Source: Acorus gramineus
Lineage: Eukaryota > Streptophyta > Magnoliopsida > Acorales > Acoraceae
Length of the DNA: 64,000 nucleotides
Direction: 5' to 3'
Assembly (NCBI GenBank): GCA_030737835.1
Contig: CM060855.1
Coordinates: 3,032,478 to 3,096,477 of the forward strand
Below the pieces are notes generated by a model. That model saw nothing but the letters and a program-made list of their open reading frames with translations. It was not told where the DNA came from and ran no database searches. Positions 1,093-61,248 of this stretch are shown here, in pieces. The position numbers and the translations under genes were made by a program. Within the stretch, counting starts at the first letter, position 1. Every line of letters begins with the position of its first letter.

Positions 1093-1101
1093 TTATACTT
1101 T

Positions 1102-2543
1102 CAATAATGATTCCTAGACCCCAACTTTCCAGGCCCCATCACAGGCCCCATGATGTGGCAATAGGACATTACCTATTATACCCTTTAATTGATAACCACC
1201 TCTAAACAAGGAAAACAATTTGATTTATTCCTAGGATTGTGGAGATTTCATTAATTACTGTATTTCTTCTTCCTTGCATTGTGTAAAATCATTAATCCCT
1301 ATAATTTATTCGTAGCAGTCCCGAAATTGATCTCTCTTTCGGATCAGGTTTGTCAATTGTTTTTTTTTATTTTTTATTTATCTTATTGAATGAAAGTCAC
1401 ATCGAATTTGAAATTAAATTTTTGATGATCAAATATTCAATCTATGTTACATGTTTCAATTCAAAAAATGAATTTTTTTTATGTTTTGATCACTATTTCA
1501 CACTTTTTTTTATATTTGTTTCGTTATAATTTCATAAATGTAATTTTGATATTGTTACATTTAATTATTACTGGTTCATGTGATGTTTATATTAGACTCC
1601 CGAACTCAGATATTCATTTACACAATTTTGTTACATTCATAAATGTAACACTCTGAAATGTAACATTATCTCATGTTGTGCATTTCTTTTAATAATGCAA
1701 ATAGAAATGACGTATAAATGTAACAGTGAAGTACATACTTTTACAGAGGATTCTGATACATTTTCTTTGGAATGCAGTGCACTAGAAATTGAAATAGATA
1801 ATTTTAAATAGTAAATGTAACTGTTTGACATTTAGGTAAATATAATTGTTTGTTCCATCTATATAAATGTAACAGTTTTTATATAAATGTAACAAATCGT
1901 TGTGAGAGATGTAAACATTTAAGAAATGTATTTGTAACTACCAATATAAAATGTAACAGTTTCATATGTTAACTATATGTGTTTTTTATTTAAATTTGAA
2001 TACAATAACTACCTAGAGAAAATGATTTGAAGGATTTTAATGAAAACAATTTCGGTAATTTTTTGTGTAATCTAGGTTCAATTATAATTTAAGTAATAAT
2101 TTTAAAATTTAGGTAATGATCGAACGGTTGTTATTCAAACTATTTGAATAACAACCGTCCGATCTTTTTTTTTTTGGTGAAACAGAATATCCAAACATCC
2201 AAATCATTTTAAATTGTTTGATAAACATTCAGAAAACACTAAGTCTTAAAATCAATAAGATAAGATTGAATATAAATGTAAACAAACTAAATAATTTTAA
2301 GATTTTAAGGATTTTAAGATTAAGTAAGGATTTTAAGATTTACATGGAAGAGTCATAACTAAATAGAGAAAATGGGGGGATTTGGGTTAATAAGATAAAT
2401 TTTTAATGAAGGGCAAATTTGTATTTTGTCATTTTACCATTTTTTGAAAAAGTCAACAAACCAAAAAACCAACCAATGAAATGATGACACCTCATGGGGT
2501 TTGTGAGTGGGGCTTATATTATGGGGCCTGGGTATCATGACTC
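1102..2543 (+). mobile_element. MULE-type non-autonomous element 'b' with 9-bp target duplication
   Basis: It starts CAATAATGATTCCTAGACCCC and ends with a sequence whose reverse complement starts GAGTCATGATACCCAGGCCCC. The terminal inverted repeats align imperfectly over about 60 bp, through AGGCCCC..TCACA..CCCCATGA.GTG. The flanks are identical 9-bp direct repeats, TTATACTTT (1093-1101 and 2544-2552), the target-site size typical of Mutator-like elements. The body carries many TGTAACA/TGTTACA words and no transposase frame. Its left ~990 bp are about the same as one unit of the array at 43.6-53.6 kb, in inverse orientation. Confidence 0.75.
2118..2164. repeat. 47-bp hairpin followed by a T-run
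   Basis: Two 22-nt arms (2118-2139 and 2143-2164) are reverse complements at 21 of 22 positions around a 3-nt loop, and a run of T follows. It lies inside MULE-type element b, just beyond the point where similarity to the array unit stops. It could be a tiny insertion or a structural part of the element. No function is assigned. Confidence 0.85.
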
Positions 2544-2566
2544 TTATACTTTTGCCAAGATAACAA

Positions 2567-21697: not shown

Positions 21698-21950
21698 GAG
21701 GAAGGTGGGTTTCCGAGTCTGGCGGGAGTCGGGGATTCTCTCAATGGACGGTTGTGATTTGATTGGGGATTTCGTTTTTTTTTTATTTTTTGCGATTTCT
21801 CCTTTTTTGATGGATTTGTGTAACCGACGTGGATTTTTTTTTTTTTTTTTTTAGAAAAATACAAACATGGATTTGGAAAGTGTGTGGTTACATTCCTTTT
21901 TATAATCTACTCTATTTATTAGGTATTCTGTTACATTAATCTATTACTTA

Positions 21951-31569: not shown

Positions 31570-32031
31570 TGTTGTAGCGCTGTCTGCTAGACAAATGTCA
31601 CCAACCATAGCCATTTTGTAAAAAAAATAAAAAAATAAATAGAATATGATATATAAGAGTATATAAACAAAGCACACAAGCATATAGAACAGAAGTAGAA
31701 AGAGATTCTTATTCACTATTTGTTTGTTGGTGTATCTAACAATCTCATTGGGCCAAATATAATAAACAAAGCACACAAGCATAGAAGAGATGTAGAGAGA
31801 GATTCTTATTCACTATTTGTTGGTTAGTGGAATACAAGAGAAACCCCTCTATTTATAGGGTGCATAGAAGAATCCCAAAGATGGGAAGTTACAAGTCTAT
31901 AGAGGTGAGGGGGAGATAGTAGGGCAATAATGGGAGTGTTATGGAATAGAAGAGTGGGGGAGGTTATGGAGTTGAAGAGTGGGAGAGGTTATGGGTTAGA
32001 GAAGTGGTGGTTATCCACCATATTCACAACA
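31570..32031 (-). mobile_element. 5' LTR of the copia element
   Basis: 462 bp with TGTTG...CAACA ends, next to the primer-binding site and the GTGAG target repeat (32032-32036). It is about 60 bp longer than the other two LTR copies because of a segment near its primer-binding-site end. Confidence 0.85.
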
Positions 32032-33663: not shown

Positions 33664-34997
33664 TCAGTGGTTTGGTTCATACTCTTCTTCCAACTCTGGA
33701 TCATAATCATAGTATCCTCCTGTTTTGGTTTCAATTCCTCTGTAAAACCAACTAGCAAGTCTGATTCTGGGTTGCTGAGTGGGTACAATATTTGGTCCAT
33801 CATCTTCTTCTTTTGATTCTGAATCACAATTATAATTTCCTGGCTCTTCGGTCTGATTTTGGGTTGCTGAAATTTGAGAAGTTGAAGCTTCAGATTCATT
33901 GAAAACTTCCACAACCTGAACATATATATAATTTTTTTTCATGTTAATGATATATATGAGTAATAATTGATCTATATGTTTGGCTCAATATTGAATGAAC
34001 AGACTCAATTCAAACAAGAAAACAATCTAAATTAAAATTTTAAAATTAAAATTCAATCAGGACTTTTATTATTATGATCAACAAACAAAAATTAAACCAA
34101 TGTAAAAAAAATGTTTTATAAAGGAAAAGCATACAACTTTAATAAAATCAAGATTTTCTGATTTTCAGAGACCAAAAAAAAAATCAATCATGAAAACAAG
34201 AGATTAAAAAAAATGATCTGAAACAAATTATTGGATCATTTTAATATTAATTGAATTCATCAGTAATGTGGTACGTACACATGAATTTTAATTTGTTTCA
34301 TTCACCTACAGTGCATGCACTTCATATTCATTATTTAAGTGGTTATTTTTTGGACCAATGGGTGGTGTGTATTTTATTTAATTCATATACATGAATGAAT
34401 CTTGTAATGCATGTATAATTATATTGGATAATCTAGAATGGAATATATGGATGTTGGAATACCAAATAATAAGAATGTGTATTATTTTCATGAATCCAAT
34501 AGGGTTCAATTAGTCTATGAATATCCTACTCCATCCCATGGCACAACTCACATCAAATGACACATTTATACAACAAGAGAGAGAACTTATAAGCTAAAAA
34601 TTATAGCTTTTAACTTAAAATAAACAGTTGCTGTTTGAAATCTATTTAAGTTAAAAACAATTTAAAAAAGTCAGAATTTGTAAACTGGGTAGATGGTGCT
34701 TTTGATGTGTTTTAAATAATCTTTATTTTGAACACTAATATCCTTATTTATTTATTTTTAGTAATGACAAACGTCATTTCATCTCCTCTATTGTTTAACA
34801 GTTTATTCTAACAAACATCCACCCATGGTTATTCCCTACTTTTTAAGCTACAACTAACATGTTTATTATTTATTAGATTTTTTTTAATACGAAAGTAGTA
34901 AATATTTGCTACAACAAATATGTCATCATTGAGAATTCAATTCTCAACTTTAAAAAGAGGGAGAGCAGAGGCCTATCTGAAAAATTAAAGGGTTTTT

Positions 34998-35033
<36 letters not shown>

Positions 35034-38000
35034 CCTCTTCAAATACGTTTTTGTGGAATTACCCCTCTTATATCCTTGATGGAAAAAATACTCCTGTTAT
35101 TTAAAACTGTTATTTAAAAGTGTTGCATTGTAATTAAGTGCCGTGAGGTTTGGTTAGGAGAGATCTATTAGTCACTGTTCGGTTCATGTAAAATGTTTCG
35201 AGATACCCTCCCAAGGGTCAAAACATTCCATCTTCTTTTCATTCTTCTCCCTTTCTTCTTCATTTTATTTGGGCCAATCCTTCTCTATTCACGACACATT
35301 TTCTTGATTCCTTATTCCTTTATTTTCATTGTTTGGTCGGACCCTATTTTGTTTCTTCTTCCCCAATCCACATGGACATGAGTAGTTCCATAAGCAATCC
35401 CAGACCCAAACCCTATTTCTTGTTTTATCAATGGGGTTTTTTAGGTGGACTAATTAGGGTTTTGATTTGGGTTTGATTTTTTGTTCGATTTAGTTTTGCC
35501 GAGGGTGAGATAGGATTTTTAGAGGGGAAGAAGAGAGAAGATGGAGGGAGGGAGAGAGAGAGAGAGAGAATTTTTTAGGCCGACTAGAAGTTGAAGTGGG
35601 GGTAAACAAGTAATTTTATAAGATAGGGTTAAAAAATTAACCATAGTTTCACTCTAGATTTTGAATGGGACTAACGATGTAATAGGAGTATTTTTGCCAT
35701 CAAATATATAAGTAATTCTAAAAAAAAAAACAAATTTTAAGAGGGGCATATAAAAAAAAAAACTCAAAATTAAAATTTATATAAGTTATAATTTATAAGT
35801 TATGATCGAATTACAACCAAACGTAAACAATGGCCAATGAAGCTAAAAAAAACGCACCTCCTCCTCGTCGAGGGTCTCATGACGAATCTCGTCCTCTTCG
35901 GTGGCGGCGGCGGCGGTCTCTGTAATGGTTGCTTCAGTTTCTGTTGTGGTGGTGGTGGTGGGCTCTGTAGCAGGTGCTTCAGCTTCTGTGGTGGTGATGG
36001 TGGTTTTCATGGGTGCTTTTGCTTCAATGGCTTCATCTGTTCTAAGCCGTTCTAAGGAGACGACGACCTCTGAGAACTTAAAAGCTCGAGCTTTTGAAAC
36101 TCGGGTCCTGTTGGTGGTGGTGGTGGTGGTGGTGGTCTCAGACATGGGTGCTTCAGAAGCTTCTGTGGTTTCTTGGTTTGTTGGGTTGGGTTGTTCAGTT
36201 GGGGTTGGGTTTTCAACTTCTTCTGGTGATCCTGATGAATCCTACAAGAAATAATAGATATATGAAAAATGTTGAGACTCATTTTTTTTTTTTTTTTTTA
36301 CTATCCAATGAGTATACCTCGTTCGAAACTTGGTGAAGCTAAGTTGTATGTCTCATTAAAAAATTTTGGGTTCATTCAACTTGAAATAGAACGATACATT
36401 TTTTTATCAAAACATATACATTATTGGATTAGATGATTTTACTATTAAAAAAAATAAACATATGTGATCTGAGTTTTTTTTTACTATAAAAAGGACTAAG
36501 TTTAACATTTTCCTAGATATATTAGTGATCTACTGGTTAGTGTCAGATAGTCTTCCTTAAGCAGGATATGTAGGAAAACTCAAAAAAATAATTAAAAAAT
36601 AGCCTAAACCAACCCTCAATCATTTTAACCCAAATATAATATTTTGAAATTTTTAATAATTATTATGAAGCTATAAATAAAAGGATATGTTACATGTGAA
36701 AATAATTTTTTTGAATATATATCTCTCAACCAACCTTATATTGTCAAAATCCCCATTTGAAACTCTAAAACCATCAATATTGAACTAGTAAAAAAATAGC
36801 ATTCATGCACAATTTATCTTTTTTGAGGGGTACTATTGAAAATAACAAATCATCAGAGATATTCTATGAAAATATAATTTTTTGAGTGTGTATATATATG
36901 TTGATATTATCCATTTATATACATATATAAATAGATTTTTTATTTCATTATTATCCTGCTATAAACCAATAAAAATAAAATAATAAAATTGATGATGTGG
37001 CATGATCAATATCATTCATTATCTTTTAAGGGTAAAATCAGAAATAAAAATGTTACAAAGAAACAAAGGTGAAAGCTAAAACACTTAAGAGTTAGTGCGT
37101 GTGTGATTCAATGATTGGATTGAAGTGAATTGAATTTAAATCAACTTATTAAGATAAGCATATGATTAAATGGATAAATCTATAGGTGCCAGAACTATAC
37201 ACATGGTGTAACATTCTCGGTACATATGTATAAATAAAATAATGATAGTGATAAGAAAATTTTAAAATCCAATAATTAACTAATAGATGCATTGATTTTT
37301 TTTATTGAAGGGTATTAAAAATAAAACACAAAAAAAATAATTATCAGTTTATTTTTTACCATGATTTCTGATGAGTAATGGTCTGTCTTCTTGAATGCTC
37401 CGATCACCTGAGATAATAAAAAATATAATAAAACTAAAGATGTATACTCTTCTTTAAATTTATGTAAATCCAGTGGAAAATATATTAATTGTAAAAATAT
37501 TAATTAAAAGAAACCTAAAAGATAAATGTAGAAAGAAAGAGACCAGAAAAAAACATTTCAAAGTTTTCTTCTAAGGAGGCCTATTTTATTCATGAATAAG
37601 TGAAATGACCAAATAAATAAATGAGACAAAGAATTGTAAAATATATATAACTAAGTTCAAATATAAATAAAAAAAATTAATTAAAACTCAAAACAATCAT
37701 TTGAATCATAAAAATGAAACATGTATATTTTCAAAACCACATCAAATGACAAAAATAAGTACTGCTCATTGTAGACCAAAAAGAACCTGATAAACAGAAA
37801 CTAAAATAAATTAAATAAATTGTTGGAATTTATTATTATGTCCTTCAATAAAGATAAAAAAAATACACAATTATACAATCACCATGATCTACCTAACACT
37901 TAAATGACCCAAAAAAATTCCAATTCAAAATCAACCCACAAGAAAATTCAATCCAATCTATTGATACAAGATGAGAACTGAAAAAAATAAAAACAATTGA

Positions 38001-38100
38001 AATGAAAAATAAAAAATTGGACTCCCATGTGGAAGAGGAACATGAAGGTGTTACCTGATAGTCACAAAGAGATGGAACTGAACAAAAATTAAAATTCGGT
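33664..38100 (-). CDS. Candidate gene for an acidic Thr/Glu-rich protein of unknown function
   Basis: Proposed exons on the - strand: a non-coding first exon ending at 38055; 37360-37407, whose last three bases are the ATG; 35858-36241 (128 codons); 33664-33915 (83 codons plus stop). All junctions are GT-AG and phase 0, giving 212 residues. The protein begins MDSSGSPEEVENPTPTEQPN. It has long Thr and Thr/Glu/Ala runs (about 46-112), a central KFSEVVVSLERLRTDEAIEA segment, then an acidic C-terminus ending GYYDYDPELEEEYEPNH. No signal peptide, membrane span or known domain was seen, and I do not recognise it. A TATATATA (near 38125) sits just upstream of the presumed first exon. A second copy at 58521-61090 lacks the last exon. 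The model needs transcripts; it could also be a transposon-carried gene. Confidence 0.5.
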
Positions 38101-38290
38101 TTGTTTTTCTAAGGCTTGCTTAATTATATATATAGATGGATTGTAGAGATCTTGGAGATCTGATATTCTGTTATAGTCTTATAGAATCAACTAAAGATAA
38201 GAAGTAGGGTTTTTAGTATACATAAATTACTCTTTTCAATAATACCCCTTGAAAGAGTTGAAATTGTGCAAGAATATCTAATACAGTAAT
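34114..38290. repeat. Segmental duplication, copy 1
   Basis: A near-identical direct copy lies at 55603-61248. Similarity begins at TTTTATAAAGGAAAAGCATA and ends at AATATCTAATACAGTAAT. This copy holds exons 1-3 of the candidate acidic-protein gene and its promoter; the last exon lies outside. Around 37100-37185 a ~95-bp stretch is replaced by ~370 bp of different sequence in copy 2. An (AT)n microsatellite lies at about 35000-35032. Confidence 0.9.
38125..38136 (-). promoter_or_regulatory. Candidate TATA box of the acidic-protein gene
   Basis: A TATATATA run on the - strand lies about 25-30 bp before the presumed start of the first, non-coding exon. It is conserved in the duplicated copy (near 61085). 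Confidence 0.35.
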
Positions 38291-42321: not shown

Positions 42322-42620
42322 AAGTTTGTGTAATATTCACTCTTTAAAGTGGGACATATATTTCGGGGAACAAATCAATATTGTTGAAATAGTTAAAAAA
42401 TAAGCATGTTTTTTAAATTTTCACGTTTGTGAAATATTCACTCTCTAAAGTAGGACATATATTTCGAGGAACAAATATATTTTTCAAATAGTTAAAAAAT
42501 AAGCACGTTTTTTAAATATTCAAGTTTATGAAATATTCACTCTCTAAAGTGGGACATATATTTCGAGGAACAAATTCATATTTTTGAAATAGTTCAAAAA
42601 ATAAGCATGTTTTTTAATTA
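42322..42620. repeat. Three ~118-bp tandem repeats within the PIF-type element
   Basis: The block TTCACTCTCTAAAGTGGGAC, then ATATATTTCGAGGAACAAA, then AGTTAAAAAATAAGCATG, occurs three times in succession with few changes. It lies in the right subterminal region of the element. Confidence 0.85.
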
Positions 42621-42847
42621 TTCAATCAAACATCAAAATAACATTCAGTACTTATTAAATAGACCAAAATACCCTTCTAATAAGCACTACTATTAAGTGG
42701 TGAACCAAACACACTTATCTGAATAAGTACTTATATTTTCCGCTAAACCAAACAGTATTCTGCATAAAACATTCAGCACTTATACAATCAGCACTGAATA
42801 ATTCAACACTTAAAATTCAGCATTCAGCCGAACCAAACGCAGCCTTA

Positions 42848-43449
42848 GATTAAAAAATTAGGTTTTATATTTGTTTGAAGATGAGTTTTCTAGGGATGAT
42901 AAATGTGTTTTGTTTTGAATATTTTTAATACTTTTGTTTGAAATTACTTAACAATAAAAAAGTTCTAATATTTTTTATTTGATATTTTTATGCCTCGAGA
43001 AAATTGATTAGTACATGCACAGAGTTCGACACTCAAAAATAATAAGTTGTCTTTTGGATATTTTGATTTTATTTTTATATCTAATTAATTATTTAGAAAA
43101 TAACCTTCAACCACGAAATAATGATCTTAGAAAGTCTTTAGATGACATTTAAATCATTTGTATTTAATATTGAATAATAAAATTCATTAGTTCTTTGTAA
43201 GTAGGGATAAAATTTATATTTAAGAACTCAAAATCCCAGTATTTTTTTAGAAATAATTTTCAATTTATATCAATATTTAATGTAACTATTTATGTATGAT
43301 ATTATATAAAATTTATGAACATATTTTCATGATTTATAGAGTGTTAATTTAGATTGATTTATTTCACTCTTGACCATAATGTGTTTTATAAAATGCTAAG
43401 ATGAGGCAAAAAAAAATTATAATTTTTTCTTTGTGAGATTCGTGTGGTC

Positions 43450-43491
<42 letters not shown>

Positions 43492-43631
43492 TATATATAT
43501 ATATTTTTCATGATTGATTGGAAGATTTGATTTTTTATTTGTTTTTTTTTCAAGACTATACTTTTTATATAATTTTTTTGTATTTTTATGTATATAATAT
43601 ACACATTTAAATATATTAAGTATAAAAAAAA
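42848..43631. other. AT-rich DNA with microsatellites
   Basis: It continues the ~290-bp repeat interrupted by the PIF-type element. A compound (TA)n(GA)n(TA)n microsatellite lies at about 43452-43505. No gene seen. Confidence 0.6.
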
Positions 43632-46600
43632 GTTGGGGTCTAGGAATCATTATTGTTACCTAAATTATAATTAAACCTAGATTACACCAAAAATTACCGA
43701 AATTGTTTTCATTAAAATCCTTCAAACGACTCATTTTCTCTAGGTAGTTATTGTATTCAAATTTAAATAAAAAACACATATAGTTAACATATGAAACAGT
43801 TACATTTTATATTGATAGTTACAAATACATTTCTTAAATGTTTACATCTCTCACAACAATTTGTTACATTTATATAAAAACTGTTACATTTATATTGATG
43901 GAACAAACAATTATATTTACCTAAATGTCAAACAGTTACATTTACTATTTAAAATTATCTATTTCAATTTCTAGTGTACTGCCTTCCAAAGAAAATGTAT
44001 CAGAATCCTCTGTAAAAGTATGTGCTTCACTGTTACATTTATACGTCATTTCTATTTGCATTGTTAAAAGAAATGCACAACATGAGATAATATTACATTT
44101 CAGAGTGTTACATTTATGAATGTAACAAAATTGTGTAAATGAATATCCGAGTTCAGGAGTAACATAGATTGAATATTTGATCATCAAAAATTTAATTTCA
44201 AATTCGATGTGACTTTCATTCAATAAGATAAATAAAAAATAAAAAAAACAATTGACAAACCTGATCCGAAAGAGAGATCCAACTCGATAAAGAACAAATC
44301 AGTTTTTCAAACTTCTTCAGATTAAAATTTTGGGACTGCTACGAATATGTTCATCGTAAATTATAGGGATTAATGATTTTACACAATGCAAGGAAGAAGA
44401 AATACAGTAATTAATGAAATCTCCACGATCCTAGGAATAAATCAAACCGTTTTCCTTGTTTAGAGGTGGTTATCAATTAGAGGGTATAATAGATAATGTC
44501 CTATTGCCACATCATGGGACCTATGATGGGGCCTGAAAAGTTGGGGTCTAGGAATCATTATTGTTACCTAAATTATAATTAAACCTAGATTACACCAAAA
44601 ATTACCGAAATTGTTTTCATTAAAATCTTTCAAACGATTCATTTTTTCTAGGTAGTTATTGTATTCAAATTTAAATAAAAAACACATATAGTTAACATAT
44701 GAAACAGTTACATTTTATATTGATAGTTACAAATACATTTCTTAAATGTTTACATCTCTCACAACGATTTGTTACATTTATATAAAAACTGTTACATTTA
44801 TATTGATGGAACAAACAATTATATTTACCTAAATGTCAAACAGTTACATTTACTATTTAAAATTATATATTTCAATTTCTAGTGTACTGCCTTCTAAAGA
44901 AAATGTATCAGAATCCTCTGTAAAAGTATGTACTTCACTGTTACATTTATACGTCATTTCTATTTGCATTGTTAAAAGAAATGCACAACATGAGATAATG
45001 TTACATTTCAGAGTGTTACATTTATGAATGTAACAAAATTGTGTAAATGAATATCCGAGTTCAGGAGTAACATAGATTGAATATTTGATCATCAAAAATT
45101 TAATTTCAAATTCGATGTGATTTTCATTCAATAAGATAAATAAAAAATAAAAAAAACAATTGACAAACTTGATCTGAAAGAGAGATCCAACTCGATAAAG
45201 AACAAATCAGTTTTTCAAACTTTTTCAAATTAAAATTTTGGGACTGCTACGAATATGTTCATGGTAAATTATAGGGATTAATGATTTTACACAATGCAAG
45301 GAAGAAGAAATATAGTAATTAATGAAATCTCCACAATCCTAGGAATAAATCAAACCGTTTTCCTTGTTTAGAGGTGGTTATCAATTAGAGGGTATAATAA
45401 ATAATGTCCTATTGCCACATCATGGGGCCTGTGATGGGGCCTGAAAAGTTGGGGTCTAGGAATCATTATTGTTACCTAAATTATAATTAAACCTAGATTA
45501 CACCAAAAATTACCGAAATTGTTTTCATTAAAATCCTTCAAACGACTCATTTTCTCTATGTAGTTATTGCATTCAAATTTAAATAAAAAACACATATAGT
45601 TAACATATGAAACAGTTACATTTTATATTGATAGTTACAAATACATTTCTTAAATGTTTACATCTCTCACAACAATTTGTTACATTTATATAAAAACTGT
45701 TACATTTATATAGATGGAACAAACAATTATATTTACCTAAATGTCAAACAGTTACATTTACTATTTAAAATTATCTATTTCAATTTCTAGTGCACTGCCT
45801 TCTAAAGAAAATGTATCAGAATCCTCTGTAAAAGTATGTACTTCACTGTTACATTTATACGTCATTTCTATTTGCATTGTTAAAAGAAATGCACAACATT
45901 AGATAATGTTACATTTCAGAGTGTTACATTTATGAATGTAACAAAATTGTGTAAATGAATATCCGAGTTCAGGAGTAACATAGATTGAATATTTGATCAT
46001 CAAAAATTTAATTTGAAATTCGATGTGATTTTCATTCAATAAAATAAATAAAAAATAAAAAAAACAATTGACAAACCTGATCCGGAAGAGAGATCCAACT
46101 CGATAAAGAACAAATCAGTTTTTCAAACTTCTTCATATTAAAATTTTGGGACTGCTACGAATATGTTCATCGTAAATTATAGGGATTAATGATTTTACAC
46201 AATGCAAGGAAGAAGAAATATAGTAATTAATGAAATCTCCACGATCCTAGGAATAAATCAAACCGTTTTCCTTGTTTAGAGGTGGTTATCAATTAGAGGG
46301 TATAATAGATAATGTCCTATTGCCACATCAAGGGACCTATGATGGGGCCTGAAAAGTTGGGGTCTAGGAATCATTATTGTTACCTAAATTATAATTAAAC
46401 CTAGATTACACCAAAAATTACCGAAATTGTTTTCATTAAAATCCTTCAAACGACTCATTTTCTCTAGGTAGTTATTGTATTCAAATTTAAATAAAAAACA
46501 CATATAGTTAACATATGAAACAGTTACATTTTATATTGATAGTTACAAATACATTTCTTAAATGTTTACATCTCTCACAACAATTTGTTACATTTATATA

Positions 46601-49600
46601 AAAACTGTTACATTTATATTGATGGAACAAACAATTATATTTACCTAAATGTCAAACAGTTACATTTACTATTTAAAATTATATATTTCAATTTCTAGTG
46701 TACTGCCTTCTAAAGAAAATGTATCAGAATCCTCTGTAAAAGTATGTACTTCACTGTTACATTTATACGTCATTTCTATTTGCATTGTTAAAAGAAATGC
46801 ACAACATGAGATAATGTTACATTTCAGAGTGTTACATTTATGAATGTAACAAAATTGTGTAAATGAATATCCGAGTTCAGGAGTAACATAGATTGAATAT
46901 TTGATCATCAAAAATTTAATTTCAAATTCGATGTGACTTTCATTCAATAAGATAAATAAAAAATAAAAAAAACAATTGACAAACTTGATCTGAAAGAGAG
47001 ATCCAACTCGATAAAGAACAAATCAGTTTTTCAAACTTTTTCAGATTAAAATTTTGGGACTGCTACGAATATGTTCATCGTAAATTATAGGGATTAATGA
47101 TTTTACACAATGCAAGGAAGAAGAAATACAGTAATTAATGAAATCTCCACGATCCTAGGAATAAATCAAACCGTTTTCCTTGTTTAGAGGTGGTTATCAA
47201 TTAGAGGGTATAATAAATAATGTCCTATTGCCACATCACGGGGCCTATGATGGGGCCTGAAAAGTTGGGGTCTAGGAATCATTATTGTTACCTAAATTAT
47301 AATTAAACCTAGATTACACCAAAAATTACCGAAATTGTTTTCATTAAAATTCTTCAAACGACTCATTTTTTCTATGTAGTTATTGTATTTAAATTTAAAT
47401 AAAAAACACATATAGTTAACATATGAAACAGTTATATTTTATATTGATAGTTACAAATACATTTCTTAAATGTTTACATCTCTCACAACAATTTGTTACA
47501 TTTATATAAAAACTGTTACATTTATATAGATGGAACAAACAATTATATTTACCTAAATGTCAAACAGTTACATTTACTATTTAAAATTATCTATTTCAAT
47601 TTCTAGTGCACTGCCTTCCAAAGAAAATGTATCAGAATCCTCTGTAAAAGTATGTACTTCACTGTTACATTTATACGTCATTTCTATTTGCATTGTTAAA
47701 AGAAATGCACAACATTAGATAATGTTACATTTCAGAGTGTTACATTTATGAATGTAACAAAATTGTGTAAATGAATATCCGAGTTCAGGAGTAACATAGA
47801 TTGAATATTTGATCATCAAAAATTTAATTTGAAATTCGATGTGATTTTCATTCAATAAAATAAATAAAAAATAAAAAAAACAATTGACAAACCTGATCCG
47901 GAAGAGAAATCCAACTCGATAAAGAACAAATCAGTTTTTCAAACTTGTTCATATTAAAATTTTGGGACTGCTACGAATATGTTCATGGTAAATTATAGGG
48001 ATTAATGATTTTACACAATGAAAGGAAGAAGAAATATAGTAATTAATGAAATCTCCACGATCCTAGGAATAAATCAAACCGTTTTTCTTGTTTAGAGGTG
48101 GTTATCAATTAGAGGGTATAAGAGATAATGTCCTATTGCCACATGATGATGGGGCATGAAAAGTTGGGGTCTAGGAATCATTATTGTTACCTAAATTATA
48201 ATTAAACCTAGATTACACCAAAAATTACCGAAATTGTTTTCATTAAAATCCTTCAAACGACTCATTTTCTCTAGGTAGTTATTGTATTCAAATTTAAATA
48301 AAAAACACATATAGTTAACATATGAAACAGTTACATTTTATATTGATAGTTACAAATACATTTCTTAAATGTTTACATCTCTCACAACAATTTGTTACAT
48401 TTATATAAAAACTGTTACATTTATATAGATGGAACAAACAATTATATTTACCTAAATGTCAAACAGTTACATTTACTATTTAAAATTATATATTTCAATT
48501 TCTAGTGTACTGCCTTCTAAAGAAAATGTATCAGAATCCTCTGTAAAAGTATGTACTTCACTGTTACATTTATACGTCATTTCTATTTGCATTGTTAAAA
48601 GAAATGCACAACATGAGATAATGTTACATTTCAGAGTGTTACATTTATGAATGTAACAAAATTGTGTAAATGAATATCCGAGTTCAGGAGTAACATAGAT
48701 TGAATATTTGATCATCAAAAATTTAATTTGAAATTCGATGTGATTTTCATTCAATAAAATAAATAAAAAAAAAAAAAACAATTGACAAACCTGATCCGGA
48801 AGAGAGATCCAACTCGATAAAGAACAAATCAGTTTTTCAAACTTCTTCATATTAAAATTTTGGGACTGCTACGAATATGTTCATCGTAAATTATAGGGAT
48901 TAATGATTTTACACAATGCAAGGAAGAAGAAATATAGTAATTAATGAAATCTCCACGATCCTAGAAATAAATCAAATCATTTTCCTTGTTTAAAAGTAGT
49001 TATCAATTAGAGGGTATAATAGATAATGTCCTATTGCCACATGATGATGGGGCATGAAAAGTTGGGGTCTAGGAATCATTATTGTTACCTAAATTATAAT
49101 TAAACCTACATTACACCAAAAATTACCGAAATTGTTTTCATTAAAATATTTCAAACGACTCATTTTCTCTATGTAGTTATTGTATTCAAATTTAAATAAA
49201 AAACACATATAGTTAACATATGAAACAGTTACATTTTATATTGATAGTTACAAATACATTTCTTAAATGTTTACATCTCTCACAACAATTTGTTACATTT
49301 ATATAAAAACTGTTACATTTATATAGATGGAACAAACAATTATATTTACCTAAATGTCAAACAGTTACATTTACTATTTAAAATTATCTATTTCAATTTC
49401 TAGTGCACTGCCTTCCAAAGAAAATGTATCAGAATCCTCTGTAAAAGTATGTACTTCACTGTTACATTTATACGTCATTTCTATTTGCATGTTAAAAGAA
49501 ATGCACAACATGAGATAATGTTACATTTCAGAGTGTTACATTTATGAATGTAACAAAATTGTGTAAATGAATATCCGAGTTCAGGAGTAACATAGATTGA

Positions 49601-52600
49601 ATATTTGATCATCAAAAATTTAATTTGAAATTCGATGTGATTTTCATTCAATAAAATAAATAAAAAATAAAAAAAACAATTGACAAACCTGATCCGGAAG
49701 AGAAATCCAACTCGATAAAGAACAAATCAATTTTTCAAACTTCTTCAGATTAAAATTTTAGGACTGCTACGAATATGTTCATGATAAATTATAGGGATTA
49801 ATGATTTTACACAATGCAAGGAAGAAGAAATATAGTAATTAATGAAATCTCCACGATCCTAGGAATAAATCAAACCGTTTTCCTTGTTTAGAGGTGGTTA
49901 TCAATTAGAGGGTATAATAAATAATGTCCTATTGCCACATCACGGGGCCTATGATGGGGCCTGAAAAGTTGGGGTCTAGGAATCATTATTGTTACCTAAA
50001 TTATAATTGAACGTAGATTACATAAAAAATTACCGAAATTATTTTCATTAAAATCTTTCAAACGACTCATTTTCTCTATGTATTTATTGTATTCAAATTT
50101 AAATAAAAAACACATATAGTTAACATATGAAACAGTTACATTTTATATTGGTAGTTACAAATACATTTCTTAAATGTTTACATCTCTCACAACAATTTGT
50201 TACATTTATATAAAAACTGTTACATTTATATTGATGGAACAAACAATTACATTTACCTAAATGTCAAACAGTTACATTTACTATTTGAAATTATCTATTT
50301 CAATTTCTAGTGCACTGCCTTCCAAAGAAAATGTATCAGAATCCTCTGTAAAAGTATGTACTTCACTGTTACATTTATACGTCATTTCTATTTGCATTGT
50401 TAAAAGAAATGCACAACATGAGATAATGTTACATTTCAGAGTGTTACATTTATGAATGTAACAAAATTGTGTAAATGAATATCCGAGTTCAGGAGTAACA
50501 TAGATTGAATATTTGATCATCAAAAATTTAATTTGAAATTCGATGTGGTTTTCATTCAATAAAATAAATAAAAAATAAAAAAACAATTGACAAACCTGAT
50601 CCGGAAGAGAGATCCAACTCGATAAAGAACAAATCAGTTTTTCAAACTTCTTCATATTAAAATTTTGGGACTGCTACGAATATGTTCATCGTAAATTATA
50701 GGGATTAATGATTTTACACAATGCAAGGAAGAAGAAATATAGTAATTAATGAAATCTCCACGATCCTAGGAATAAATCAAACCGTTTTCCTTGTTTAGAG
50801 GTGGTTATCAATTAGAGGGTATAATAAATAATGTCCTATTGCCACATCACAGGGCCTATGATGGGGCCTGAAAAGTTGGGGTCTAGGAATCATTATTGTT
50901 ACCTAAATTATAATTAAACCTACATTACACCAAAAATTACCGAAATTGTTTTCATTAAAATCTTTCAAACGACTCATTTTCTCTATGTAGTTATTGTATT
51001 CAAATTTAAATAAAAAACACATATAGTTAACATATGAAACAGTTACATTTTATATTGATAGTTACAAATACATATCTTAAATGTTTACATCTCTCACAAC
51101 AATTTGTTACATTTATATAAAAACTGTTACATTTATATAGATGGACCAAACAATTATATTTACCTAAATGTCAAACAGTTATATTTACTATTTAAAATTA
51201 TCTATTTCAATTTCTAGTGCACTGCCTTCTAAAGAAAATGTATCAGAATCCTCTGTAAAAGTATGTACTTTACTGTTACATTTATACGTCATTTCTATTT
51301 GCATTGTTAAAAGAAATGCACAACATGAGATAATGTTACATTTCAGAGTGTTACATTTATGAATGTAACAAAATTGTGTAAATGAATATCCGAGTTCAGG
51401 AGTAACATAGATTGAATATTTGATCATCAAAAATTTAATTTGAAATTCGATGTGATTTTCATTCAATAAAATAAATAAAAAATAAAAAAAACAATTGACA
51501 AACCTGATCCGGAAGAGAGATCCAACTCGATAAAGAACAAATCAGTTTTTCAAACTTCTTCATATTAAAATTTTGGGACTGCTACGAATATGTTCATCGT
51601 AAATTATAGGGATTAATGATTTTACACAATGCAAGGAAGAAGAAATACAGTAATTAATGAAATCTCCACGATCCTAGGAATAAATCAAACCGTTTTCCTT
51701 GTTTAGAGGTGGTTATCAATTAGAGGGTATAATAGATAATGTCCTATTGCCACATCATGATGGGGCCTGAAAAGTTAAGGTCTAGGAATCATTATTGTTA
51801 CCTAAATTATAATTAAACCTACATTACACCAAAAATTACCGAAATTATTTTCATTAAAATCTTTCAAACGACTCATTTTCTCTATGTATTTATTGTATTC
51901 AAATTTAAATAAAAAACACATATAGTTAACATATGAAACAGTTACATTTTATATTGGTAGTTACAAATACATTTATTAAATGTTTACATCTCTCACAATA
52001 ATTTGTTACATTTATATAAAAACTGTTACATTTATATAGATGGAACAAACAATTATATTTACCTAAATGTCTAACAGTTACATTTACTATTTAAAATTAT
52101 CTATTTCAATTTCTAGTGCACTGCCTTCCAAAGAAAATATATCAGAATCCTCTGTAAAAGTATGTACTTCACTGTTACATTTATACGTCATTTCTATTTG
52201 CATTGTTAAAAGAAATGCATAACATGAGATAATGTTACATTTCAGAGTGTTACATTTATGAATGTAACAAAATTGTGTAAATGAATATCCGAGTTCAGGA
52301 GTAACATAGATTGAATATTTGATCATCAAAAATTTAATTTCAAATTCGATGTGACTTTCATTCAATAAGATAAATAAAAAATAAAAAAAACAATTGACAA
52401 ACCTGATCCGAAAGAGAGATCCAACTTGATAAAGAACAAATCAGTTTTTCAAACTTATTCAGATTAAAATTTTGGGACTGCTACGAATATGTTCATCGTA
52501 AATTATAGGGATTAATGATTTTACACAATGGAAGGAAGAAGAAATATAGTAATTAATGAAATCTCCACAATCCTAGGAATAAATCAAACCGTTTTCCTTG

Positions 52601-53604
52601 TTTAGAGGTGGTTATCAATTAGAGGGTATAATAAATAATGTCCTATTACCACATCATGGAGCCTGTGATGGGGCCTAAAAAGTTGAGGTCTAGAAATCAT
52701 TATTGTTACCTAAATTATAATTGAACCTAGATTACACCAAAAATTACCGAAATTGTTTTCATTAAAATCCTTCAAACGACTCATTTTCTCTAGGTAGTTA
52801 TTGTATTCAAATTTAAATAAAAAACACATATAGTTAACATATGAAACAGTTACATTTTATATTGATAGTTACAAATACATTTCTTAAATGTTTACATCTC
52901 TCACAACAATTTGTTACATTTATATAAAAACTGTTACATTTATAAAGATGGAACAAACAATTATATTTATCTAAATGTCAAACTGTTACATTTACTATTT
53001 AAAATTATCTATTTCAATTTCTACTGCACTGCCTTCTAAAGAAAATGTATCAGAATCCTCTGTAAAAGTATGTACTTCACTGTTACATTTATACGTCATT
53101 TCTATTTGAATTGTTAAAAGAAATGCACAACATGAGATAATGTTACATTTCAGAGTGTTACATTTATGAATGTAACAAAATTGTGTAAATGAATATCCGA
53201 GTTCAGGAGTAACATAGATTGAATATTTGATCATCAAAAATTTAATTTGAAATTCGATGTGATTTTCATTCAATAAAATAAAAAAAAAATAAAAAAAAAC
53301 AATTGACAAACCTGATCCGGAAGAGAGATCCAACTCGATAAAGAACAAATCAGTTTTTCAAACTTCTTCAGACTAAAATTTTGGGACTGCTACGAATATG
53401 TTCATGATAAATTATAGGGATTAATGATTTTACACAATGCAAGGAAGAAGAAATACAGTAATTAATGAAATCTCCACAATCATAGGAATAAATCAAACCG
53501 TTTTCCTTGTTTAGAGGTGGTTATCAATTAGAGGGTATAATAGATAATGTCCTATTGCCACATGATGATGGGGCATGAAAAGTTGGGGTCTAAGAATCAT
53601 TATT
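43632..53604 (-). repeat. Tandem array of eleven ~905-bp units derived from a MULE terminus
   Basis: Units start at about 43656, 44565, 45473, 46380, 47289, 48188, 49087, 49991, 50899, 51799 and 52708. Each begins TTACCTAAATTATAATT and ends GGGGTCTAGGAATCATTATTG, the inverse of the left terminus of MULE-type element b (1102). A truncated terminus (43632-43655) precedes the first unit and the array ends at a terminus at 53604. Units differ by only a few percent. Each is rich in TGTTACATTT words. Every unit shows a 64-codon + frame and most a 92-codon - frame, but these only mirror the recent copying and are not called genes. Confidence 0.95.
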
Positions 53605-53822
53605 GATATTATATTATATTTGAGTGAAATAATGCTGGTTATTTATCCACTCGCCAGATTGAACCGCAGCACAAACCCACTAACCTGAACTTGGGCATCC
53701 CCTCGCCCAACCGACCAACTGCCTCCCGGCCCCATAAAAAAATGGGGTTCGGATCTCCTGTGAAAAAATCACAGGGTTTCTCTATGTGAACCTGTTAAAT
53801 TTTAACACACGGCATTGAGTCT
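53605..53822. other. Spacer between the array and a possible gene
   Basis: It contains a GC-richer stretch (about 53645-53750, CCCTCGCCCAACCGACC) unlike both sides. No gene or RNA recognised. Confidence 0.4.
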
Positions 53823-55140: not shown

Positions 55141-55602
55141 CATTTGTTCCAAGAACACATATTCATATTATCTGCTAGGCAATTTTTTTTTTTTTTTTTT
55201 TTTTTACCTTCATGAGTTCAGAATTAAATTTAAAAAACTAAGAGTTGTTTTGTAATACCTTGGAGTTTACTGCAAAGAAATAGGTATACTAACAAAAGAT
55301 GTATTTGAATGAGGTCAATTGTTTAGTTGACTGGAAAAAACGAATGTGAGCAGTAGCATTCAATCAAATGAGAAAGACTAAGAAGCCATCATGTCGGCAG
55401 AGTGAAAATTGATATACGAATTTTATTGAACAACTAGGCATTGCAAATCAGCATTGAAAAAAACTTATACTTATATTGTAACCATACACAAGACATGAAT
55501 TACATAAATCACACCAAAAAATACATTTCAGATTTTTCTGATATGATCATGATGAGCAAGTATAGAGACTGAGTTGTCAAAAGACATTGAATATCGACAT
55601 AT
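55141..55602. other. Intergenic, no gene seen
   Basis: AT-rich, with a long T-run near 55183-55205. Nothing else was recognised before the duplicated segment begins. Confidence 0.5.
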
Positions 55603-57022
55603 TTTTTATAAAGGAAAAGCATACAACTTTAATAAAATCAAGATTTTCTGATTTTCAGAGACCAAAAAAAAAATCAATCATGAAAACAAGAGATTAAAAA
55701 AAATGATCTGAAACAAATTATTGGATCATTTTAATATTAATTGAATTCATCAGTAATGTGGTACATATACATGAATTTTAATTTGTTTCATTCACCTACA
55801 GTGCATGCACTTCATATTCATTATTTAAGTGGTTATTTTTTGGACCAATGGGTGGTGTGTATTTTATTTAATTCATATACATGAATGAATCTTGTAATGC
55901 ATGTATAATTATATTGGATAATCTAGAATGGAATATATGGATGTTGGAATACCAAATAATAAGTATGTGTATTATTTTCATGAATCCAATAGGGTTCAAT
56001 TAGTCTATGAATATCCTACTCCATCCCATGGCACAACTCACATCAAATGACACATTTATACAACAAGAGAGAGAACTTATAAGCTAAAAATTATAGCTTT
56101 TAGCTTAAAATAAACAGTTGTTATTTGAAACCTATTTAAGCTAAAAACAATTTAAAAAAGTCAGAATTTGTAAGCTGGGTAGATGGTGCTTTTGATGTGT
56201 TTTAAATAATCTTTATTTTGAACACTAATATCCTTATTTATTTATTTTTAGTAATGACAAACATCATTTCATCTCCTCTATTGTTTAACAGTTGATTCTA
56301 ACAAACATCCACCCATGGTTATTCCCTACTTTTTAAGCTACAACTAACATGTTTATTATTTATTAGATTTTTTTTAATACGAAAGTAGTAAATATTTGCT
56401 ACAACAAACATGTTCATCATTGAGAATTGAATTCTCAACTTTAAAAAGAGGGAGAGCAGAGGCCTATCTGAAAAATTAAAGGGTTTTTTACATATATATA
56501 TATATATATATACCCCTCTTCAAATATGTTTTTGTGGAATTACCCCTCTTATATCCTTGATGGAAAAAGTACTCCTGTTATTTAAAAGTGTTGCATTGTA
56601 ATTAAGTGCCGTGAGGTTTGGTTAGGAGAGATCTATTAGTCACTGTTTGGTTCATGTAAAATGTTTTGAAATACCCTCCCAAGGGTCAAAACATTCCATC
56701 TTCTTTTCATTCTTCTCCCTTTCTTCTTCATTTTATTTGGGCCAATCCTTCTCTCTTTCTTATTCACGACACATTTTCTTGATTTCTTGTTCCTTTATTT
56801 TCATTGTTTGGTCAAACCCTATTTTATTCTCTTTTTCCCAATCTCTATGGACATGAGTAGTTCCATAAGCAATCCCAGACCCAAACCCTATTTCTTGTTT
56901 TAGCAATGGGGTTTTTTAGGTGGACTAATTAGGGTTTCTATTTGGGTTTGATTTTTTGTTCGACTTAGTTTTGCTTAGGGTGAGATAGGATTTTTAAGGG
57001 GGGAAGAAGAGAGAAGATGGAG

Positions 57023-57069
<47 letters not shown>

Positions 57070-57371
57070 TTTTTTGAGGCTGACTAGACGTTTAAGTGAG
57101 GGGTAAACAAGTAATTTTATTAGGTAGGGTTAAAAAATTAACCATAGTTTCACTCTAGATTTTGAACGGTGACTAACGATATAATAAGAGTATTTTTGCC
57201 ATCAAAGATATAATATGAGTAATTTCAAAAAAAAAAAAAAAAATTTAAGAGGGACATATATATATATAAAAAAAAACTCAAAATTAAAATTTATATAAGT
57301 TATAATTTATAAGTTATGATCGAATTACAACCAAACGTAAACAATGGCCAATGAAGCTAAAAAAAACGCAC

Positions 57372-57482
57372 CTCCTCATCGTCGAGGGTCTCATGACGAA
57401 TCTCGTCCTCTTCGGTGGCGGTGGCGGTGGCTGTGGCGGCGGCGGCGGTGGTCTCTGTAATGGTTGCTTCAGTTTCTGTTGT
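57372..57482 (-). pseudogene. Partial extra copy of the acidic-protein exon
   Basis: On the - strand this holds the 3' end of the Thr/Glu-rich exon (ETEATITETTAAAA, then EEDEIRHETLDDEE) with its GTGCGT donor. It breaks off at TGTGG|TTATTCCC, where the next tandem unit starts. Left by the internal tandem duplication of copy 2. Confidence 0.8.
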
Positions 57483-58192
57483 GGTTATTCCCTACTTTTT
57501 AAGCTACAACTAACATGTTTATTATTTATTAGATTTTTTTTTAATATAAAGGTAGTAAATATTTGCTACAACAAACATGTTCATCATTGAGAATTGAATT
57601 CTCAACTTTAAAAAGAGGGAGAGCAGAGGCCTATCTAAAAAATTAAAGAGATATATATATATATATATACACCTCTTCAAATATGTTTTTGTGGAATTAC
57701 CCCTCTTATATCCTTGATGGAAAAAGTACTCCTGTTATTTAAAAGTGTTGCATTGTAATTAAGTGCCGTGAGGTTTGGTTAGGAGAGATCTATTAGTCAC
57801 TGTTTGGTTCATGTAAAATGTTTCGAGATACCCTCCCAAGGGTCAAAACATTCCATCTTCTTTTCATTCTTCTCCCTTTCTTCTTCATTTTATTTGGGCC
57901 AATCCTTCTCTCTTTCTTATTCACGACACATTTTCTTGATTTCTTGTTCCTTTATTTTCATTGTTTGGTCAAACCCTATTTTATTCTCTTTTTCCCAATC
58001 TCTATGGACATGAGTAGTTCCATAAGCAATCCCAGACCCAAACCCTATTTCTTGTTTTAGCAATGGGGTTTTTTAGGTGGACTAATTAGGGTTTCTATTT
58101 GGGTTTGATTTTTTGTTCGACTTAGTTTTGCTTAGGGTGAGATAGGATTTTTAAGGGGGGAAGAAGAGAGAAGATGGAGGGAGGCAGGGGGG

Positions 58193-58224
<32 letters not shown>

Positions 58225-58520
58225 GAGGCTGACTAGACGTTTAAATGAGGGGTAAACAAGTAATTTTATTAGGTAGGGTTAAAAAATTAACCATAGTTTC
58301 ACTCTAGATTTTGAACGGTGACTAACGATATAATAAGAGTATTTTTGTCATCAAAGATATAATATGGGTAATTTCAAAAAAAAAAAAAAAAATTTAAGAG
58401 GGACATATATATATATAAAAAAAAACTCAAAATTAAAATTTATATAAGTTATAATTTATAAGTTATGATCGAATTACAACCAAACGTAAACAATGGCCAA
58501 TGAAGCTAAAAAAAACGCAC

Positions 58521-61090
58521 CTCCTCCTCGTCGAGGGTCTCATGAAGAATCTCGGCCTCTTCGGTGACGGTGGCGGCGGCGGCGGTGGTCTCTGTAATGG
58601 TTGCTTCAGTTTCTGTTGTGGTGGTGGTGGTCTCTGTAACAGGTGCTTCAGCTTTTGTGGTGGTGGTGATGGTTTTCATGGGTGCTTCAATGGCTTCATC
58701 TGTTCTAAGCCGTTCTAAGGAGACGACGACCTCTGAGAACATAAAAGCTCGAGCTTTTGAAACTCGGGTCCTGGTGGTGGTGGTGGTGGTCTCAGACATG
58801 GGTGCTTCAGAAGCTTCTGTGGTTTCTTGGTTTGTTGGGTTGGGTTGTTCAGTTGGGGTTGGGTTTTCAACTTCTTCTGGTGATTCTAATGAATCCTACA
58901 AGAAATAATAGATATATGAAAAATGTTGAGACTCATTTTTTTTTTTTTTTTAACTATCCAATGAGTATACCTTGTTCGAAACTTGGTGAAGCTAAGTTGT
59001 ATGTCTCATTAAAAAACTTTTGGGTTCATTCAACTTGAAATAGAGCGATACGTTTTTTGATCAAAACATATACATCATTGGATTAGATGATTTTACTATT
59101 TAAAAAAAATAAAAGCATATGTGGTTGAGTTTATTTTTACCATAAAAAAGACTAAGTTTAACATTTTCCAAGATATATTAGTGATCTACTGGTTAGTGTC
59201 AGATAGTCTTCCTTAAGCACGATATCTAGGAAAACTCAAAAAAATAATAAAAAAAATAGTCTAACCCAACCCCCTCAATTATTTTAACCCAAATATAATA
59301 TTTTGAAAATTTTAATAATTATTATGAAGCTATAAATAAAAGGATATGTTACACGTGAAAATAATTTTTTTGAATATATATCTCTCAACCAATCTTATAT
59401 TGTCAAAATCCCCATTTGAAACTCTAAAACCATCAATATTGAACTAGTAAAAAAATAGCATTCATGCACAATTTATCTTTTTTGAGGGGTACTATTGAAA
59501 ATAACAAATCATCAGAGATATTCTATGAAAATATAATTTTTTGAGTGTGTATATATATGTTGATATTATCCATTTATATACATATATAAATAGATTTTTT
59601 ATTTCATTATTATCCTGCTATAAACCAATAAAAATAAAATAATAAAATTGATGATGTGGCATGATCAATATCATTCATTATCTTTTAAGGGTAAAATCAG
59701 AAATAAAAATGTTACAAAGAAACAAAGGTGAAAGCTAAAACACTTAAGAGTTAGTGTGTGTGTGTGTGTGTGTATAGATGCAAGTTAACTTAAATAACCA
59801 TGATATAGACCAAATATTTAAAATATGGAATTATTCAAAAATTCCATTCAATTTAACATATAGAATAATAAATTTGTATATTATGTAATATACTTTTTTC
59901 ATATTTTAACAAATGTAATGTAACAATTTTTTTTTTAATTAAATTAGGATAAATTTTAAAAATATATTTAATTTTGAATTATTAAAATTTGAATATATTG
60001 AACTAACTTATTTAAATCAATAAATTTAATAAATATCTTTAATTTCAAATTATTAAAATTTGATATTGAATTTTTAATCTTCTTCAATCTTAAAATATAT
60101 TCATGATTTACAAAAATCTGATTTAAAATCTTGAATGTTGTGCCAGAACTATACACATGGTGTAACATTCTCGGTACATATGTATAAATAAAATAATGAT
60201 AGTGATAAGAAAATTTAAAAATCCAATAATTAATTAATAGATGCATTGATTTTTTTTATTGAAGGGTATTAAAAATAAAACACAAAAAAAATAATTATCA
60301 GTTTATTTTTTACCATGATTTCTGATGAGTAATGGTCTGTCTTCTTGAATGCTCCGATCACCTGAGATAATAAAAAATATAATAAAACTAAAGATGTATA
60401 CTCTTCTTTAAATTTATGTAAATCCAATGGAAAATATATTAATTGTAAAAATATTAATTAAAAGAAACCTAAAAGATAAATGTAGAAAGAAAGAGACCAG
60501 AAAAAAAACATTTCAAAGTTTTCTTCTAAGGAGGCCTATTTTATTCATGAATAAGTGAAATGACCAAATAAATAAATAAATGAGACAAAGAATTGTAAAA
60601 TATATATAACTAAGTTCAAATATAAATAAAAAAAATTAATTAAAACTCAAAACAATCATTTGAATCATAAAAATGAAACATGTATATTTTCAAAACCACA
60701 TCAAATGACAAAAATAAGTACTGCTCATTGTAGACCAAAAAGAACCTGATAAACAGAAACTAAAATAAATTAAATAAATTGTTGGAATTTATTATTATGT
60801 CCTTCAATAAAGATAAAAAAAAATACACAATTATACAATCACCATGATCTACCTAACTTAAATGACCCAAAAAAATTCCAATTCAAAATCAACCCACAAG
60901 AAAATTCAATCCAATCTATTGATACAAGATGAGAACTGAAAAAAATAAAAACAATTGAAATGAAAAATAAAAAATTGGACTCCCATGTGGAAGAGGAACA
61001 TGAAGGTGTTACCTGATAGTCACAAAGAGATGGAACTGAACAAAAATTAAAATTCGGTTTGTTTTTCTAAGGCTTGCTTAATTATATATA
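58521..61090 (-). pseudogene. Second copy of the acidic-protein gene, lacking the last exon
   Basis: Non-coding first exon ending at 61013, exon with terminal ATG 60314-60361, and Thr/Glu-rich exon 58521-58895 (125 codons, still open, starting DSLESPEEVENPTPTEQ). Donor and acceptor sites are all kept. The last exon of copy 1 (33664-33915) lies beyond the duplication edge, so there is no matching 3' end. It is probably a truncated paralogue, though a transcript reading through to new sequence is possible. The open frame may reflect youth rather than selection. Confidence 0.5.
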
Positions 61091-61248
61091 TAGATGGATT
61101 GTAGAGATCTTGGAGATCTGATATTCTGTTATAGTCTTATAGAATCAACTAAAGATAAGAAGTAGGGATTTTTGTATACATAAATTACTCTTTTCAATAA
61201 TACCCCTTGAAAGAGTTGAAATTGTGCAAGAATATCTAATACAGTAAT

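Follow-up and report, generated by a model that had tools for sequence, protein, structure and literature searches.

Tandem arrays derived from transposable elements are well known; one DNA transposon, hobo, has reached 16 copies in tandem (McGurk and Barbash, in PMC12628747). As at the Acorus gramineus locus described here, a DNA transposon gave rise to a local tandem array, for which double insertion followed by unequal exchange is one proposed route (PMC12628747). The hobo elements, however, are whole and lie end to end via a shared target site, whereas the Acorus array has one end joined to a point in the interior and lacks the other end. Truncated Helitron arrays of plants likewise contain one terminus many times while the other is rare or absent (Xiong et al. 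2016, in PMC12628747), but Helitrons are rolling-circle elements, and the Acorus element has inverted ends and target-site duplications. Parts of a DNA transposon have also become tandem repeats in Drosophila virilis, where the foldback transposon Tetris was described with an emerging satellite (PMC4079207). A survey of tandem LTR retrotransposons concerns a different class of element (PMC11899658).

Reversed-ends transposition of maize Ac makes tandem direct duplications, and there, too, transposon ends and target-site chemistry create the duplication junction directly; two nearby Ac elements duplicate host DNA, whereas in the Acorus array the target would lie inside the element (PMC3744419). 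During autointegration of Sleeping Beauty and piggyBac, an end attacks the interior of its own element, which yields deletion circles and one-ended products. These systems are experimental and belong to other superfamilies, and the passages of the report cited here do not mention a tandem array (PMC3952818). Non-autonomous MULEs form linear arrays as SaTar elements in guayule and rice, but these are complete, mostly unrelated elements inserted at microsatellites, whereas the Acorus array repeats one truncated unit (PMC5907723). In the open-access literature on MULE satellites and tandem repeats, taken mostly at the level of titles and the opening lines of abstracts, no array of one MULE terminus is described.

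We analysed a window of 64,000 nucleotides (C9:3032478-3096477) from a 398.6-Mb assembly in 137 contigs. A preliminary description had reported a ~10-kb array of eleven head-to-tail units of ~905 bp at 43632..53604; the array is real, and its coordinates were right to within 4 bases. Eleven complete units (43656-53605) are followed by 24-28 bp of a twelfth, the last 4 T of which are ambiguous with a T run of the flank (Table 1). The units are 898-908 bp long, and one unit, used as a query, matched each of them from end to end with 95.7-100% identity. Read in the orientation of the element, which is the minus strand, each unit starts with CAATAATGATT and stops with TTTAGGTAA. The source is a non-autonomous Mutator-like element: every unit opens exactly on its first base (CAATAATGATTCC) and breaks off within it, ~250 bp before its other end. 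The repeated segment is one terminus with part of the interior and not a whole element, as had been claimed; it corresponds to the leftmost ~1054 bp of the element, less an interior stretch of ~147 bp. This gap is common to all eleven units (146-149 bp in comparison with 37 of 38 genomic copies) and is a feature beyond the preliminary description, as are the truncated twelfth terminus, which brings the left ends in the array to 12, and the intact left end at 53605/53606. No two of the eleven units are identical. They diverge from each other by 1.1-4.3% (mean 2.6%), compared with a mean of 4.2% (range 1.3-18.0%) for dispersed single copies.

Table 1. Features of the array, its left flank and the single element (positions in the window)
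Feature	Positions	Strand
Target-site duplication TTATACTTT, left copy	1093..1101	+
Single complete member of the family (1442-bp subfamily)	1102..2543	+
Target-site duplication TTATACTTT, right copy	2544..2552	+
Left flank: repeat copy; paralogues L096, L097, L098 continue beyond with sequence missing from the window	42845..43619	.
Whole array: 11 head-to-tail units and truncated twelfth left terminus	43628..53605	-
Truncated twelfth left terminus, 24 bp + 4 T shared with flank	43628..43655	-
TTTAGGTAA, internal 9 bp joined to left end; identical at the other junctions	43656..43664	-
U11, last complete unit	43656..44563	-
U10	44564..45471	-
U09	45472..46379	-
U08	46380..47287	-
U07, 9-bp deletion	47288..48186	-
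U06, 9-bp deletion	48187..49084	-
U05	49085..49991	-
U04	49992..50898	-
U03, 9-bp deletion near left end	50899..51797	-
U02	51798..52705	-
U01, first in element orientation; left end at 53605 adjoins unrelated flanking DNA	52706..53605	-

The full element was defined from the single copy in the window and 38 of the 39 genomic copies that were fetched; one (L067) had no defined ends and was dropped. Full elements are 1246-1577 bp long, mostly about 1300 bp, and the single copy in the window keeps the interior (1451-1595) and the right end that the units lack. Single insertions had been placed at 1.1-3.8 kb, of which the full element stands, while the matches at 3.0-3.5 kb belong to a diverged relative (70-84%) from another subfamily. 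The element begins with CAATAATG... and ends with ...GGTATCATGACTC, and its terminal inverted repeats are imperfect; in the window's single copy their alignment starts at base 6 from either end and covers about 55 bp. An exact, flush target-site duplication of 9 bp was found in 15 of 39 elements, against 7 of 1482 mismatched left/right pairings that served as a control, and one of 10 bp in four further elements (L056, L060, L066 and L072). A hallmark of MULEs is a target-site duplication of 8-11 bp, typically 9-10 bp. Helitrons make no such duplication and have TC...CTRR ends, neither of which agrees with the 9-10-bp duplications and the ends of this element. Tetris is reportedly a foldback element with internal repeats, unlike the Acorus element.

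The assignment to a MULE family, already proposed, holds on the strength of these duplications and of a left end probably in common with a MULE-transposase gene. At this locus on C7 (L103, C7:10157500-10163500) a related left end (76.7% over 86 bp, with an interior of ~76%) precedes, on the same strand, an ORF in which FAR1 (41.8 bits) and MULE (119.3 bits) domains were recognised; another ORF matches SWIM weakly. The right end of this relative was not found in 7.0 kb of the locus, and it is by left end and interior that the family is probably linked to it. Two more left ends have MULE matches on the same strand, at distances of 2.1 and 3.4 kb. Downstream of the ORFs of the C7 locus, a G+C-richer stretch resembles, by eye, a nested insertion. 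Members of the family cluster end to end around the single element in the window: a related element apparently has its right end (GGGGCCTGGGTATCACCACTG followed by TTATACTTT, 1072-1101) directly beside the insertion at 1102. Two left ends on C2 (L027 and L028, at C2:5683320 and C2:5758324), 75 kb apart, have identical flanks and are a segmental duplication carrying one old insertion.

The junction GGTAA/CAATAATGATTCC (the slash marks the joint; its reverse complement is read on the plus strand) was found exactly at 10 sites in the window and with 1 mismatch at the eleventh. When up to 3 mismatches were allowed, the genome contained 47 such places, namely the 11 array joints and 36 others with 2-3 mismatches. 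Nineteen of the 36 were examined: in 16 the alignment with the element starts at its first base, and three (L025, L026 and L034) could not be aligned. At 0-1 mismatch, the 11 array joints are the only ones in the assembly, so the proposed search for the same junction elsewhere yielded none outside the array. The joint across the internal deletion, searched with up to 3 mismatches, occurs at 11 genomic places, all exact and all in the array. Since both joints are confined to the array, we attribute it to one founder event at one locus, in agreement with the earlier expectation that a single breakpoint at all junctions would indicate one founder. The units also form one clade relative to 39 single copies, with moderate support (ultrafast bootstrap 74).

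At the joint the sequence reads GGTAA/CAATAATG, the interior of the element continues as GGTAA/TGATT and the outer flank reads ...AATAT/CAATAATG; therefore, the joint cannot slide by even one base. It is flush at the first base of the element, a position set independently by the target-site duplications, and there is no microhomology. The terminus and the internal site have 8 bp, TAATGATT, in common; we considered an exchange at this microhomology and rejected it, as it would have deleted CAA, yet CAA is present. The same private deletion is found in all eleven units, hence both joining partners were of one lineage, and with the deletion present in both, the partner was putatively a sister copy or the very same molecule.

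We assign a probability of about 60% to the explanation that the left end was joined by transposase to the element's own interior, that unequal exchange and gene conversion followed, and that the right end was lost afterwards. Because the joint is flush on the first base and without microhomology, transposase end-joining into the element's own sequence is its most likely origin. The process would have started from a non-autonomous Mutator-like element at what is now 53605, with the private ~147-bp internal deletion already present. The left end of this element, or of an identical sister copy, would have been joined in direct orientation to the internal target TTTAGGTAA, either by nested insertion into a sister copy or by one-ended joining between sister chromatids, which would yield a direct repeat of about 900 bp that has a left terminus where its two copies meet. 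This repeat could then have been raised to at least 12 copies, and shuffled, by unequal exchange and gene conversion; a later rearrangement would have truncated the far side, leaving 24-28 bp of a unit and no right end.

Twenty-nine of 38 copies contain the internal site TTTAGGTAATGATT, and its 9 bp end 191-449 bp (mostly 247-251 bp) before the right end. The fit of the 9-bp target to the AT-rich target profile of the family is moderate and the profile does not discriminate this internal site: in six elements, the positions with a better score number about 240-270 each, out of ~1260-1570. One insertion of the family, on C2, lies in DNA that bears no relation to the element, and its host target matches the internal one at 12 of 14 positions (TTTCCGTAATGATT). 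Nested insertion predicts a reciprocal junction, in which the right end adjoins TTTAGGTAATGATT, and this was not found genome-wide; the only match, with 2 mismatches, was rejected as an ordinary insertion in unrelated DNA. Consequently, the data do not distinguish between nested insertion, one-ended sister joining and a circle intermediate.

Exchange or conversion between units is evident from the failure of the four-gamete test by 28 of 55 pairs of transversion/indel sites and 211 of 406 pairs of all informative sites, and from the patchy distribution of a 9-bp deletion near the left end, common to U01, U03, U06 and U07 only. The preliminary description had offered rolling or aberrant transposition, or unequal exchange, as possible origins; the start by aberrant transposition and the growth by unequal exchange, seen in the mosaic variants, were retained, while a rolling event was neither shown nor excluded. 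Stepwise growth by short-range exchange might predict that neighbouring units are more alike, and the lack of a significant effect (Mantel r 0.19, p 0.14) counts against it. Private variants decrease along the array (Spearman -0.82, permutation p 0.0014, a post hoc test on 11 units), as expected if units towards the truncated side are younger or better homogenised. Without the 9-bp deletion columns, the total of derived sites is 10 to 24 per unit. C>T and G>A changes make up 26 of the 46 private substitutions, with no enrichment in CG or CHG context (2/22 CG, 3/35 CHG and 21/192 CHH sites), and deamination in CG context was rejected on this basis.

On its outer side (53605/53606) the array ends with an intact left end beside chromosomal DNA, and a relative of this right flank without the element (C9:3098900-3099250) matches at 92% over the first 50 bp and then at 86% over another stretch. 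On the other side, the three paralogues of the left flank agree in the continuation that is missing from the window, and comparison with them shows that the flank edge is a rearrangement breakpoint at about 43617-43627. This breakpoint explains the absence of right ends from the array, and the preferred explanation must assume such a further rearrangement. No simple empty site for the array was found, the right flank having no match to the paralogues' continuation, and no target-site duplication of the whole array was recognised by eye in the AT-rich flanks.

Alternatively, an excised element might have attacked its own interior, and the resulting deletion circle (left end to TTTAGGTAA) might have been amplified, by rolling circle or multimerisation, and reinserted as a concatemer. 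Such circles have been demonstrated for Sleeping Beauty and piggyBac (PMC3952818), and this route predicts the exact junction, the total absence of right ends and one founder with one private deletion. We nevertheless regard it as rather unlikely. A reinserted circle should start at a random phase, but the outer boundary is exactly a left end; neither a free circle nor a second insertion of the unit was found by the junction and deletion-joint searches of the assembly; and a single burst would yield identical copies, so that the many shared variants require later exchange anyway. Less probable still is an ordinary illegitimate duplication or slippage followed by unequal exchange. It needs no transposase, and tandem segmental duplications are common in the window, but its breakpoint would have fallen by chance, and without any microhomology, on the element's end to the base, a coincidence of perhaps 1 in a thousand if breakpoints are spread over ~1 kb.

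Copy number in tandem arrays is prone to mis-assembly and this array is known from the assembly alone, yet stacking of single elements by the assembler is very improbable, given that the units are all distinct, 1.1-4.3% apart, and that no other place was found from which the junction or the internal deletion could have been stacked. Helitron-like rolling-circle amplification of a truncated element, suggested by plant arrays that are rich in 5' ends and poor in 3' ends (Xiong et al., in PMC12628747), is the least credible origin for an element with imperfect inverted ends, 9-10-bp target-site duplications and a relative with a MULE transposase domain.

We tentatively suggest that the array might be a natural fossil of cut-and-paste (MULE) autointegration, in which a one-ended circle or sister-chromatid product was amplified, although we hold this to be doubtful. 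If it were general, self-joining would be a regular, sequence-recognisable seed of plant tandem repeats, and the expected trace would be arrays of one terminus joined flush to an interior 9-bp target. The first dimer of transposon-derived repeats is usually guessed, the founding junction being lost; the Acorus array keeps it, alike at 11 joints and on the transposon end to the base. Within a tandem period, an element terminus that meets its own element's interior in a flush joint is a searchable signature that could be counted across plant genomes to ask whether transposase or random repair starts such repeats.

The earlier phrase of a satellite being born was overstated. The repeats are tandem and head-to-tail, but they form neither long, abundant nor multi-locus arrays: a single locus of ~10 kb was found, with no second one, and its units are 1.1-4.3% apart. 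A search for the left end with up to 3 mismatches gave 818 places, of which the best 100 were inspected; all were exact, and 9 lay in the array. Among the 91 non-array left ends so listed, one same-strand pair within 5 kb was seen by eye, on C4, and it was rejected as a second array, the DNA before its second left end being unrelated to the element. The array is genuine: a truncated MULE, repeated at a single locus from a single founder, with its founding joint preserved. It is aged and partially homogenised, and not a spreading satellite.

Other repeats occur in the window. Left of the array there are three 99-bp repeats (42322-42625) and a stretch of ~150 bp (42700-42849) that recurs in the genome at 95-100% identity. 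The array sits in the spacer between the copies of a large direct duplication (34111-38290 and 55601-61248, in pieces 92-99% identical), the second of which contains an adjoining 1.2-kb tandem duplication (56316-57485 and 57482-58622, 95.6%). A further adjoining tandem duplication, of 2.4 kb (21950-24320 and 24317-26651), is 97.2% identical, and a 400-bp part of it is found again at 31632-32031.
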